A stretch of 45,770 nt of DNA from Flavobacteriales bacterium (GTDB lineage: Bacteria; Bacteroidota; Bacteroidia; Flavobacteriales_F; PHOS-HE28): positions 1 to 45,770 of the forward strand of contig JADLAI010000186.1 in assembly GCA_020848295.1 (NCBI GenBank), given 5' to 3'. Each line of letters begins with the position of its first letter. Positions within the stretch are counted from its first letter, which is position 1. The position numbers were made by a program, and so were the translations under genes. Below are positions 11,967-16,136 of this stretch, piece by piece. Below the pieces are notes generated by a model. The model did no database searches. It was not told where the DNA came from and worked only from the letters and a program-made list of their open reading frames with translations.

Positions 11967-12374
11967 ATGCGTTCAGAATCCGCACGTTGGACCGGTACCC
12001 TGCTGCATGGCTGGGTGGAGGTGCTCACGCTCCTCGGCATGCTCTTGGTGGCGGTGGTCCTCATTGCCTGGTGCTGGAACCGGGGGGTGCGGCCATCCGA
12101 TCGGCAGGGGCTGCTCCCGTGGCCGCTGTTCTTATCGGGTGCGGCCCTGACGCTCCTGCTACGCCATTTCGATCAGGGCCTGCTTCCCGCAGTGATCATC
12201 GCTGCTGGGGTGATGATCGCTGGTGTCATAGCACGGGTGGGCACCCATCGTGGCCTGTGGATCCCGGTCATGCTGCTGGCCTCGCTGCTCGGCCTTGGGC
12301 TGAACCTCAGCTTCGTGCTGCTCATGTTGCTGATCATGATCGTCCTGCTCATTAGCGCAGGTCGCGACCGATGA
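11967..12374 (+). CDS. Small multi-spanning membrane protein upstream of CotH genes
   Basis: 135 aa, unrecognised. About four hydrophobic helices are evident (VEVLTLLGMLLVAVVLIAW; LFLSGAALTLLL; LLPAVIIAAGVMIAGVI; then a long Leu/Met-rich C-terminal helix pair). It ends in SAGRDR, and its stop overlaps the ATG of the CotH gene (ATGA at 12371-12374), so the two are translationally coupled. The first ATG at 11967 is used rather than a GTG six bases earlier. It does not show the features of DUF4956, the membrane family often linked to CotH elsewhere. Possibly a membrane partner of the two following proteins. Confidence 0.65.
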   Translation: MRSESARWTGTLLHGWVEVLTLLGMLLVAVVLIAWCWNRGVRPSDRQGLLPWPLFLSGAALTLLLRHFDQGLLPAVIIAAGVMIAGVIARVGTHRGLWIPVMLLASLLGLGLNLSFVLLMLLIMIVLLISAGRDR

Positions 12375-13969
12375 AGCGGGGTGTTGGCGGCACCGGGTTG
12401 CTCGTGCTGCTGGCGATCGTGCTCGTTTCGTTCGTCGTGTTCGCTGTCATGCTGGGGCCGGGGCGTGCCGTGCGGATCGCAGTGGCATCCTTTCTCACCA
12501 CCACGGTCGATGGGTTGGCCGAGGACCTGCCACCTCACCGCCTACGCGTAGTGGATGTGCGCATCGACCCGGAACACCTTGATCGAATGAACAGCGACCT
12601 GCCCTGGAGCGGCGGGGAGTACCGACCGGCCGAACTCGTGGAACATGGGGTCCACTACCCGGCGAAGTTCCGCTATCGGGGGATCTACTCCGCCTCACAC
12701 TACCTCGGCGGGAAGAAGTCGTTCCGGTTGGCGCTCAAGAAGGACAACCCGTTCAAGCCATTCCGACGCCTCAACTTCATCAACCCCAAGTCGTTCAACA
12801 TGCTCAACAACCACATGGGCATATGGATCGCTGGGCGCATGGGAGTGGCGGTGCCATGGAACGAGATGGTGTACGTACGGCTGAACGGGGCCGACTACGG
12901 CGTGATGGAGATGTACGAGCAACCGAACGGCGAATTCGAGCGCGATCGGAAGCTCACCAAGGAGGAGGTGCCGGTCTATAAGGGCGAGTACCCGCCGGTC
13001 ACCCAGCGCGCGATCCCGGAGAAACGCACGTTGTGGCGGAAAGCATCGAACTGGGAATACGAGAGCAAGGCGGACAGTACCATCTCCCATGCACGGTTGG
13101 CGGCGTTGGTGGAAGTGATCGACGACAGCACGCTCACCATCGCGGCACGGCGGGATACGCTCGCGAAGCTGATCGACATGGATGCTTATGCGCGGTACCT
13201 GGCCGCCATGCTCGTGGTGAACACCAAGCACATGGATCAGTTCCACAACCAGTGGTTGGTCATGTCCGCCCGCACGGGGCTCTTCTATCCGATCTTCTGG
13301 GATGCCTTGCTGATGTTCCCACCGGCCGGGGAGCCGCTCTATTTCATCAACGACGCGCTCGCGCACTGGTTCCTGCGGATCCCGGAATGGCGCCTGCTGC
13401 GCGACCGGTATGCCTATGGCGCTTTGCAGGACCTGCACACCGGCGGGGCCTTCATGCGGCATTACGACCAGGCGATCGAGCGGATCAAACCATCGATCCT
13501 TGCCGACCGGAACAAGTTCGGGCACGTATCACCCATCCCTTCCGATGTGCATCAGTTCTCCGTGGCTCACGTGATCAGCTCGTTCGCAGGGATGCGTGCC
13601 ACCGTGAACGCCTACTGGGATCGTACCATCGCACGCCTGGCCGATCGTTCGGTCAAGGTGGAACGAGGCGAACAACTGCACCTGACCACCACCAACGAAG
13701 CCCCACTGGAACTGCGTTGGCACAGCTTCGATGCACAGGCACCACAGGTGGTGGCCGGTACGGATACACTTACCGCCGAGCGCAAGGAGGGCTGGTGGTC
13801 CGTGACCATCCACCGCACCCTTACCCTGCCCGAAGGGAGCTGGGACCGCCCTTTCGCCAACTGGCAGCACTACGTGGTGGAGCCCCTGGACCTCTCGGTA
13901 TCCTTTGCGGCCGGCATCCCGAACGACCTCCGGATCAGCAACGCCATCACCGATGAAGAGATCCGTTAG
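12371..13969 (+). CDS. CotH-family protein kinase, membrane-anchored
   Basis: 532 aa. An N-terminal hydrophobic segment (residues 8-30) anchors a large extracytoplasmic domain. CotH features: GGKKSFRLALKKDNPF near 115, the LNFINPK...LNNHMG region, VYVRLNGADYGVMEMYEQ, and VYKGEY with Lys204. The likely catalytic and metal residues are D289 and N293 (HMDQFHNQW) and D311 (PIFWDAL). CotH proteins are atypical kinases related to Fam20C that phosphorylate secreted or coat proteins; spore coat is irrelevant here, so the target is unknown. It overlaps the preceding gene by 4 nt and the following one by 17 nt, giving a tight three-gene operon. Confidence 0.8.
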   Translation: MKRGVGGTGLLVLLAIVLVSFVVFAVMLGPGRAVRIAVASFLTTTVDGLAEDLPPHRLRVVDVRIDPEHLDRMNSDLPWSGGEYRPAELVEHGVHYPAKFRYRGIYSASHYLGGKKSFRLALKKDNPFKPFRRLNFINPKSFNMLNNHMGIWIAGRMGVAVPWNEMVYVRLNGADYGVMEMYEQPNGEFERDRKLTKEEVPVYKGEYPPVTQRAIPEKRTLWRKASNWEYESKADSTISHARLAALVEVIDDSTLTIAARRDTLAKLIDMDAYARYLAAMLVVNTKHMDQFHNQWLVMSARTGLFYPIFWDALLMFPPAGEPLYFINDALAHWFLRIPEWRLLRDRYAYGALQDLHTGGAFMRHYDQAIERIKPSILADRNKFGHVSPIPSDVHQFSVAHVISSFAGMRATVNAYWDRTIARLADRSVKVERGEQLHLTTTNEAPLELRWHSFDAQAPQVVAGTDTLTAERKEGWWSVTIHRTLTLPEGSWDRPFANWQHYVVEPLDLSVSFAAGIPNDLRISNAITDEEIR

Positions 13970-16136
13970 ACCACGAAAGGTGGGGCCGGGATCCTGGTTG
14001 ATCGGGATGCTCGTGGTGGGAGGTGGCCTGCTGGGTCTCTTCTCACTTGGCCGTGCGGCCTGGCTGCGTCAACTCCCCGGTATAACGGTGGATCCTGCGG
14101 AATGGTCGTTCTTCGCGCGGCTCTTCGATCGGCATCCGGTCGCTACCACTGTTCCAACTTTGCCCGTGCTGGCATTCGGTAACTCCAATGAGGTTTCGGA
14201 ATGCCTCCATGCACAACGTGGCGGTGCCTGGCGCTCGCGGTGGTTCGAAGGGGATGGGAAGAGCGATTCCGTTGAGGTACGCCATCAATTGGACCGCATG
14301 GGATATGTGGTCCGGTTCCACAAGGAAGGTCCTGCTGGAACGATACGAGGTGTTCACTTGATCCCGGCCGACTCCTTGGCGTTGCGCGAGCGTTGGTCCC
14401 ATATCCTCGCGACCGAGCTCGGCCTGCTGACGCCTGCGTTACGGCTGGTGCGGGTGCGATCGTGCGACGTGGACCTGGGGCCACACCTGGAACTGGAACG
14501 GATCGACGACCGGTTCCTGCTCCGGCATGGCCTGCGCGGTGTCACGCTGGTGAAGATGGGAATGGATCCGATGCGTCCTGATCGGCAATTCCCCGTGATC
14601 GATGCCGATAGTACCGAACAGGTGAAGCTGCGTGGACTGATCGTGCGGGCCATGGCCGAGGTGGCCGCAGGTCGTACGGCCATGCTCACGCGGATCATGG
14701 ATCCCGATGCGGTGGCCGCTTGGGCCTTGATGGCCTGGATGGACCAACGCGACCTGCGAAGCGCTACGGTCACCTTCGCCTATGATCGGATCGCCGGGCA
14801 TTTCCGACCGATCCATCAGGTGGCCCTGGCAACAGAGCCGGAGGCCGAAGGGAACGAACTGCTTTACAACATGATCACCCCGCTCCTCGAACTGCCGGAG
14901 GTTCGATCCCGATTCATGGAGTTGCAGGAAAGGATCGCCTCCAATTGGTCGGCATGGCACCAACGGGAGGCCGCCACGGACAATTTGTGGCGTTCGTTGC
15001 TGGGTGTCCCGGATCGCGCGCTGCACACCGTGGAAAGGGCCACCGACCCCGGTGCGCTGGATCATTTCAAGTGGACCATGCGTGCCGGTCCGGGCCATGC
15101 TACCCTGGCGCATGGGATCCCGCTTCCACCAGCGGAGGTCACCTCCCCCTCGGATACCGTTGAACTGGTCCGGCTCGCCGAACGGTACGACCTCATCCTG
15201 CAAGGCGATTCCATCCTCTTCCCCCGCGGCAAATACACGATCGAGGAGGACCTGGAGTTCCCCGCCGGACACACGGTGGTCATGCAACAAGGAGCGCGGC
15301 TCTTCCTGGCGCCCGGCCGTAGCATCCTGGTGAAGGGCGACCTGCACATCCGGGGCACATTGCGCAATCCGGTCTTCATCCGGCCCTTGGAGGAAGGGGT
15401 GGGTTTCGGCACGATCGCCCTGTTGGGGAATGGCACCCAGCAATGTGCCATCAGTGGTCTCTACATCTCCGGCGGCACCGGTGCGAAGCTCGCTGGGATG
15501 CATTGCGAGGGCATGGTGACCATCCTGGCTGCGGCACGCACCGCGATCACATCGAGCGTACTCCAGGAGAGCACCGCGGAAGCCTCATTGGTCGTGGATG
15601 GGGGAGAGCTTCGGATGGACGAGGTGCGCTGGGAGGATGGTGCCAGGCATTTCGCCCGTTTGGACCAGGTGCGTGCGGTTGTTCGGGACCCGGTCATGAT
15701 CGGCGCACGCACGAACGCCACCACCGGCCTTTGGCTGCGCAGCGGGACGGTGGCGGTGTTGGGTGGTACGTTCACTGCCATGCGGGGCGAAGCGATCCGG
15801 GCGGAAGGTTCAGCACAGGCGCTCGTGCGCCACGCCAGGCTCTCGAGGAACGCAACGGCCTTGTACAGTGGGGGCCAGGCAGAGGTGCTTGTGGAGGGCT
15901 GCACGATCGATGCGAACGAGGTGGCCTTCGCACCGGCGACGGGTTCCCCTGGCGATCGTTTCATCCGTTACCCCAACACGATGTTGGAGAATGGCAAGGA
16001 GCACACCTCGGCTTCAGGTATCAAGGACGCTTCGGCGCTGGATGCGGCGACGGTATCCCGGTTCGGGGTGCCGCTCACCGAAGCACCACCACCGGCACCG
16101 CGGCGTAGGGGTGGTGTCACACGCCAGGCGGATTGA
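13953..16136 (+). CDS. CotH-like probable pseudokinase fused to a beta-helix domain
   Basis: 727 aa. An N-terminal membrane segment (around 13-33) is followed by a divergent CotH-like region: LELERIDDRFLLRHG, then LVKMG with Lys201, then WMDQRDLRS with D264. By eye this aligns with the upstream kinase, but the Asn after the first Asp is lost, and the second catalytic Asp (FYPIFWDALL there) is replaced (FRPIHQVALA here, residues 284-293). Residues from about 400 to 660 form short Gly/Val-rich repeats typical of a right-handed parallel beta-helix (KGDLHIRGTLRNPVFIRP, then many V-E-G-T units). The tail is Pro/Arg-rich. The start at 13953 overlaps the kinase gene by 17 nt. Likely a surface scaffold or regulator; assignment is inference. 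Confidence 0.6.
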   Translation: MKRSVRPRKVGPGSWLIGMLVVGGGLLGLFSLGRAAWLRQLPGITVDPAEWSFFARLFDRHPVATTVPTLPVLAFGNSNEVSECLHAQRGGAWRSRWFEGDGKSDSVEVRHQLDRMGYVVRFHKEGPAGTIRGVHLIPADSLALRERWSHILATELGLLTPALRLVRVRSCDVDLGPHLELERIDDRFLLRHGLRGVTLVKMGMDPMRPDRQFPVIDADSTEQVKLRGLIVRAMAEVAAGRTAMLTRIMDPDAVAAWALMAWMDQRDLRSATVTFAYDRIAGHFRPIHQVALATEPEAEGNELLYNMITPLLELPEVRSRFMELQERIASNWSAWHQREAATDNLWRSLLGVPDRALHTVERATDPGALDHFKWTMRAGPGHATLAHGIPLPPAEVTSPSDTVELVRLAERYDLILQGDSILFPRGKYTIEEDLEFPAGHTVVMQQGARLFLAPGRSILVKGDLHIRGTLRNPVFIRPLEEGVGFGTIALLGNGTQQCAISGLYISGGTGAKLAGMHCEGMVTILAAARTAITSSVLQESTAEASLVVDGGELRMDEVRWEDGARHFARLDQVRAVVRDPVMIGARTNATTGLWLRSGTVAVLGGTFTAMRGEAIRAEGSAQALVRHARLSRNATALYSGGQAEVLVEGCTIDANEVAFAPATGSPGDRFIRYPNTMLENGKEHTSASGIKDASALDAATVSRFGVPLTEAPPPAPRRRGGVTRQAD

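Follow-up and report, generated by a model that had tools for sequence, protein, structure and literature searches.

A three-gene operon in the window, by which we mean the whole 45,770 bp stretch of DNA that was analysed, encodes a small membrane protein (memb), a CotH-like protein with an intact Asp/Asn/Asp triad (CotH1) and a second CotH-like protein that has lost this triad and is fused to a beta-helix (CotH2). Sequence comparison gives about an even chance that the operon specifies an envelope-glycan module, in which the pseudokinase-beta-helix protein would be the core scaffold and the kinase an optional catalytic partner. As the dead kinase often outlasts the live one, CotH2 is probably a cell-surface scaffold and the operon not a simple copy of the Fam20A/Fam20C pair.

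The genes are all on the + strand, at 11,967 bp–12,374 bp (memb, 135 aa), 12,371 bp–13,969 bp (CotH1, 532 aa) and 13,953 bp–16,136 bp (CotH2, 727 aa). memb and CotH1 overlap by 4 bases and CotH1 and CotH2 by 17 bases; the ATG starts of CotH1 (12,371 bp) and CotH2 (13,953 bp) were kept among orthologues. The overlaps and the outer coordinates agreed with a sequence-only reading of this DNA, which had described three overlapping genes between 11,967 bp and 16,136 bp. The same three-gene order was kept across a genus, which argues that the arrangement is not due to chance. The window's own genome is 66% complete, so absences from that genome carry little weight.

CotH1 has N-terminal membrane helices (residues 9–49), followed by a kinase-like domain (residues 59–425, 12,545 bp–13,645 bp) and a C-terminal beta domain (residues 426–532, 13,646 bp–13,966 bp), the domain limits being taken from the structure model and the orthologue alignment. 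It matched PF08757 with 65.3 bits (cut-off 23.8, E 8.7e-18), as did 16/19 of its orthologues at E ≤ 0.001. The predicted structures of CotH1 and CotH2 were built on shallow alignments (19 and 29 sequences, respectively). That of CotH1 (pLDDT 82.6) had Bacillus cereus CotH (5jda) as its best PDB match in Foldseek (E 1.2e-17, TM 0.77 on the target), and its earlier description as CotH-like was therefore upheld. The fold of the Bacillus spore-coat kinase CotH (5jd9, 5jda; PF08757) is common to CotH1 and the N-terminal half of CotH2, and the KKS motif, the Asn and the metal Asp of Bacillus CotH are shared with CotH1. Unlike Bacillus CotH, the window proteins have no spore context and are predicted to be membrane-anchored; the N-terminal membrane helices on both CotH1 and CotH2 suggest an envelope location.

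CotH1 had been read as carrying K204, D289, N293 and D311 in place. These letters are present, the last three at 13,235 bp–13,237 bp, 13,247 bp–13,249 bp and 13,301 bp–13,303 bp, but K204 follows the hinge strands in the fold and is replaced by Arg in five orthologues with an intact D/N/D, which makes it an unlikely beta-3 ATP lysine. From the fold order, K115/K116 of the GGKKSFR motif (12,713 bp–12,718 bp), ahead of the equivalent of kinase helix C, is the likelier candidate. The D/N/D (D289, N293, D311) was kept in 18/21 CotH1 orthologues, in one of these with N changed to D. The spacing between D289 and N293 is 4 (D-x3-N) in CotH1 and in every intact orthologue, whereas it is 5 (D-x4-N) in B. 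cereus CotH and in the CotHa proteins of related operons described below. With a catalytic loop one residue short, CotH1 may not be a conventional kinase.

It is doubtful, however, that the operon encodes no kinase at all, with CotH1 also dead or repurposed and both proteins serving in binding or as structural components. Besides the short spacing, this explanation draws on the loss of the D/N/D in three CotH1 orthologues (genomes G024, G037 and G014), whose matches also end before the C-terminal beta domain, and on solitary CotH/beta-helix relatives in other Bacteroidia, most of which keep N (HNQ) and D and lack an Asp in the canonical place. Against it, the 18 non-degenerate orthologues show strong conservation of H-[MI]-D-[QN]-[FY]-H-[ND]-Q, of WD and of the lysines in KKSFR, and the CotH1 fold matches that of an active CotH at E 1e-17.

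CotH2 carries an N-terminal membrane helix (residues 12–32), a CotH-like pseudokinase domain (residues 71–372, 14,163 bp–15,068 bp) and a right-handed beta-helix (residues 413–695, 15,189 bp–16,037 bp). Its PF08757 score of 18.1 bits falls under the cut-off of 23.8. The predicted structure (pLDDT 83.9) nevertheless had B. cereus CotH (5jda) as its best PDB match (E 7.6e-10, TM 0.59 on the target), and the order of helices and strands in the models of its first 370 residues and of CotH1 is parallel; the second protein is thus predicted to adopt the CotH fold. Neither of the two outcomes that were to refute the sequence-only reading, a different fold for this protein or genes that do not occur together in other genomes, was observed. 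The next Foldseek matches were beta-helix proteins (tailspikes, AlgE epimerases, alginate lyases and RbmB), and PF13229 was matched by 23/29 CotH2 orthologues. Relative to Bacillus CotH, CotH2 is missing the catalytic residues and has gained a beta-helix. Alignment and model bore out the earlier description of a protein without the Asn and metal Asp and fused to a beta-helix, and none of the aligned CotH2 orthologues has an intact D/N/D. The two residues that CotH2 was said to keep, K201 and D264 (numbered from 13,953 bp), are indeed present in the window, but both vary among orthologues.

The beta-helix is the best conserved large part of CotH2, with a median all-pairs identity of 0.35; the N-lobe has 0.29 and the kinase-like C-lobe, the least conserved part, 0.23. 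That the beta-helix is better conserved than this C-lobe counts in favour of the module. The invariant residues D419, R425, R449 and R477 all lie within the beta-helix. The spacing of the invariant Arg residues (24–28 residues) is close to one coil, and they could line up as a ridge of charge opposite an acidic ligand.

Linkage was counted over 45 genomes of the genus; an order-level search gave the same 45. CotH2 was present in 35/45 genomes and memb in 34/45, all 34 being among the 35 with CotH2, and the one exception (G036) ends at a contig edge. CotH1 was found in 21/45 genomes, each time with both other genes, and ten genomes had none of the three. This fixed order and co-occurrence, which the sequence-only reading had proposed as a check, favours the module. 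In 13 genomes memb is followed directly by CotH2. Relocation of CotH1 in these genomes was rejected, as no match to it was found genome-wide at E ≤ 1e-5. Together with the three genomes in which CotH1 is degenerate, CotH2 lacks a CotH1 with an intact triad in 16/35 genomes. CotH2 thus has a role for which an active CotH1 is not required.

In a tree of the CotH domains, the root of which is not firmly placed, CotH1 formed one clade (99/98) and CotH2 another (100/100), and CotH1 grouped weakly with CotHa and B. cereus CotH. As each has its own clade, a recent tandem duplication giving rise to CotH1 and CotH2 was unsupported. Eleven CotH2 sequences from two-gene loci formed a single nested clade (99/97) beside three-gene loci, with the three-gene locus L071 outside it. 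A single loss of CotH1 is therefore the simplest history, and the sequences suggest one such loss in the genus; to explain the decay of its catalytic residues, one or two more events are required. In the two-gene clade the CotH-like domain of CotH2 is 167–201 residues long, against 213–222, a difference consistent with constraint having relaxed when the partner was lost, although the shortening is a single event on one branch.

Extracytoplasmic kinase-pseudokinase pairs are known from animals, and the operon had been proposed as a bacterial counterpart of Fam20C/Fam20A. In such a pair CotH2 would be an allosteric activator dimerising with CotH1, and its beta-helix a targeting arm. The Fam20C/Fam20A system (PMC7948968) likewise consists of a kinase and a catalytically altered relative beyond the cytoplasm, where the window proteins are also predicted to reside. 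The part of the proposal that concerns linked, adjacent folds stood: the genes overlap, one product has the D/N/D and the other does not, CotH1 is always accompanied by CotH2, and pairs of intact and altered CotH proteins recur in other Bacteroidia. The shortened CotH2 domain of the two-gene clade, which looks as if constraint had relaxed once the partner was lost, also speaks for such a pair. A role for CotH2 as a Fam20A-like activator that switches on its partner was unsupported. Unlike Fam20A in its pairing, CotH2 persists without its kinase, CotH1 being absent from 13 genomes and degenerate in 3, and its retention in those 13 speaks against activation as its sole role. The catalytic spacing of CotH1 is itself unusual. 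The kinase-like domain is moreover its fast-evolving part, and the domain shortening happened once, on one branch. The Fam20A pseudokinase retains ATP binding (PMC7948968); in CotH2, by contrast, the conserved Lys region, the Asn and the Asp are gone. No likeness to the Fam20 families emerged, as the window proteins matched no Fam20 model in Pfam or NCBIfam scans at the thresholds used, and no Fam20 structure was among the 50 best Foldseek matches listed for CotH1 and CotH2. We consider a Fam20-like pair unlikely. That the three genes are linked by position only, with separate functions, is very improbable: CotH1 is dispensable in 13 genomes, but the overlapping starts and stops, the fixed order, the near-strict co-occurrence of memb and CotH2 across a large divergence and an analogous arrangement at a second locus (contig C62, L127) all speak against it.

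This second, parallel operon is encoded by the same genome (L127:2,521–10,439). A search of genome contigs for loci related to CotH2 returned nothing. The C62 operon encodes, in order, a 133-aa membrane protein, a CotH protein (E 3.6e-39), Wzy_C (E 2.7e-15), an 824-aa CotH/beta-helix protein, a weakly matching metallophosphoesterase and a gene that by eye is NAD-dependent epimerase-like. Profile matches (E 1e-11 to 1e-17) and hhalign (probability 89.5) relate its membrane protein to DUF4956.

The product of the window's memb gene, which the sequence-only reading had called a small membrane protein, has about four hydrophobic helices, with a conserved WNRGxRPxDRG motif between helices 1 and 2. 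Strong matches to the memb profile were confined to the genus; the best non-self matches included DUF4956 proteins at E 0.07 or worse. memb had no accepted match in Pfam, PF16316 (DUF4956) included, and hhalign profile comparison gave E 0.51 against DUF4956 directly and E 0.006 against the DUF4956-related protein of C62. Membership of memb in DUF4956 was accordingly not accepted; at the level of sequence, homology between the two is only suggestive.

A CotH2 profile search over 395 genomes of the class, after which neighbourhoods were examined, found CotH/beta-helix proteins in other Bacteroidia either beside DUF4956 and VTC or in Wzy_C operons; the counts that follow cover only loci matching this profile and are not a frequency in the class. 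A recurrent operon had the order DUF4956, VTC, CotHa, Wzy_C, CotHb/beta-helix and metallophosphoesterase. All six genes were present at L138, L170, L173, L175, L177 and L179, with the domains confirmed by Pfam in L138 and L170, and the operon was partial at L139 and L169. Solitary CotH/beta-helix proteins were encoded beside DUF4956 and/or VTC at L131, L136, L146, L163, L164, L167 and L168. CotHa had D-x4-N and the metal Asp in 13/13 cases. CotHb was compared at L138, L139, L169, L170, L173, L175, L177 and L179 and at the genus loci L127, L140 and L143–L145, and had DWSDxK and YE (N to K, D to E) in 13/14 cases. An altered triad shared so widely points away from decay and towards either an activity of its own or a pseudokinase under conservation. 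At the presumed beta-3 lysine region, CotHa reads QHALR in the genus (L127, L140, L143, L144 and L145), where D, N and D are kept, and QKSLR in other Bacteroidia.

Like the window operon, the six-gene operon has a membrane protein, an intact CotH and an altered CotH/beta-helix protein. Its altered protein, CotHb, differs from CotH2 in retaining the Asp and the Lys, with conserved changes of the Asn to Lys and of the metal Asp to Glu. The window operon has no Wzy_C, VTC or metallophosphoesterase and is probably a reduced relative of the six-gene form. Possibly, though we put this forward tentatively, both belong to a recurrent surface-polysaccharide system of Bacteroidia that combines an intact CotH kinase with an altered-site CotH fused to a glycan-binding beta-helix, the version in the genus being a derived one in which the pseudokinase has outlived the kinase. 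No description of the CotHa/CotHb operon was found in the literature searched, in which subscription papers were thinly covered; there, searches on CotH with exopolysaccharide, Bacteroidetes and kinase found nothing, and those on CotH kinase with polysaccharide and operon found only a cellulosome review.

The fullest CotH2 relative outside the genus was found at L129:6,924–9,002 (E about 1e-60); it has a lipoprotein-like start and its gene is divergent from a VTC-DUF4956 pair. Most genomes of the genus have an adjacent VTC-DUF4956 pair elsewhere (39/45 and 40/45, respectively), and at this third locus (L184–L187) no CotH was detected by profile within 15-kb stretches.

In Gram-positive pel polysaccharide clusters, cotH, a polyphosphate polymerase, DUF4956 and DUF4832 are accessory genes, according to the accessible text of PMC7112168. 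CotH thus goes with DUF4956 and a polyphosphate polymerase in an exopolysaccharide setting, and the Bacteroidia operons likewise combine CotH with VTC and DUF4956. The window operon differs in that VTC, pel genes and a recognisable DUF4956 are all absent, and the same text makes no mention of a pseudokinase-beta-helix partner. The related operons, the beta-helix fold and this gene set of the pel clusters together point to a glycan context.

The envelope-glycan module would be anchored in the inner membrane and face the periplasm. Its target may be a cell-surface polysaccharide or a protein of the polysaccharide assembly machinery. CotH2 would be the core, its beta-helix, to judge by the fold, binding glycan and its dead CotH domain and membrane helix docking onto memb and, where present, CotH1. 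CotH1 would act as a CotH-type kinase on a protein or glycan substrate delivered by CotH2. In evolution CotH1 is dispensable, and CotH2 with memb is the lasting part. Several points count against the module: polysaccharide genes are absent from the window operon itself, the homology of memb to DUF4956 is only suggestive, the case for glycan binding comes from the fold, the catalytic loop of CotH1 is one residue short, and ATP is thought to be scarce beyond the cytoplasm.

On the tentative reading of a recurrent Bacteroidia system, the genus would provide a natural series from an active pair through a dead pair to a pseudokinase alone. The stepwise loss of CotH1 with retention of CotH2 is a natural experiment on a pseudokinase without its kinase. 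A conserved bacterial pair tied to surface-glycan genes would open pseudokinase evolution to testing in culturable relatives. It would also hint at a role for the poorly understood DUF4956/VTC/CotH set in envelope-side phosphate transfer, for which polyphosphate is one possible donor.

Two neighbouring regions of the window were also noted. An OstA/LptA-like gene on the − strand (16,137 bp–17,672 bp) is convergent with CotH2. In most CotH1-bearing loci it adjoins CotH2, and in L071 it lies on the opposite side of the operon; at the two-gene loci no such gene was found in the vicinity of the operon. Two adjacent large genes on the − strand (6,442 bp–9,785 bp) resemble, by eye, what we take to be the common DUF1501/DUF1800 pair.
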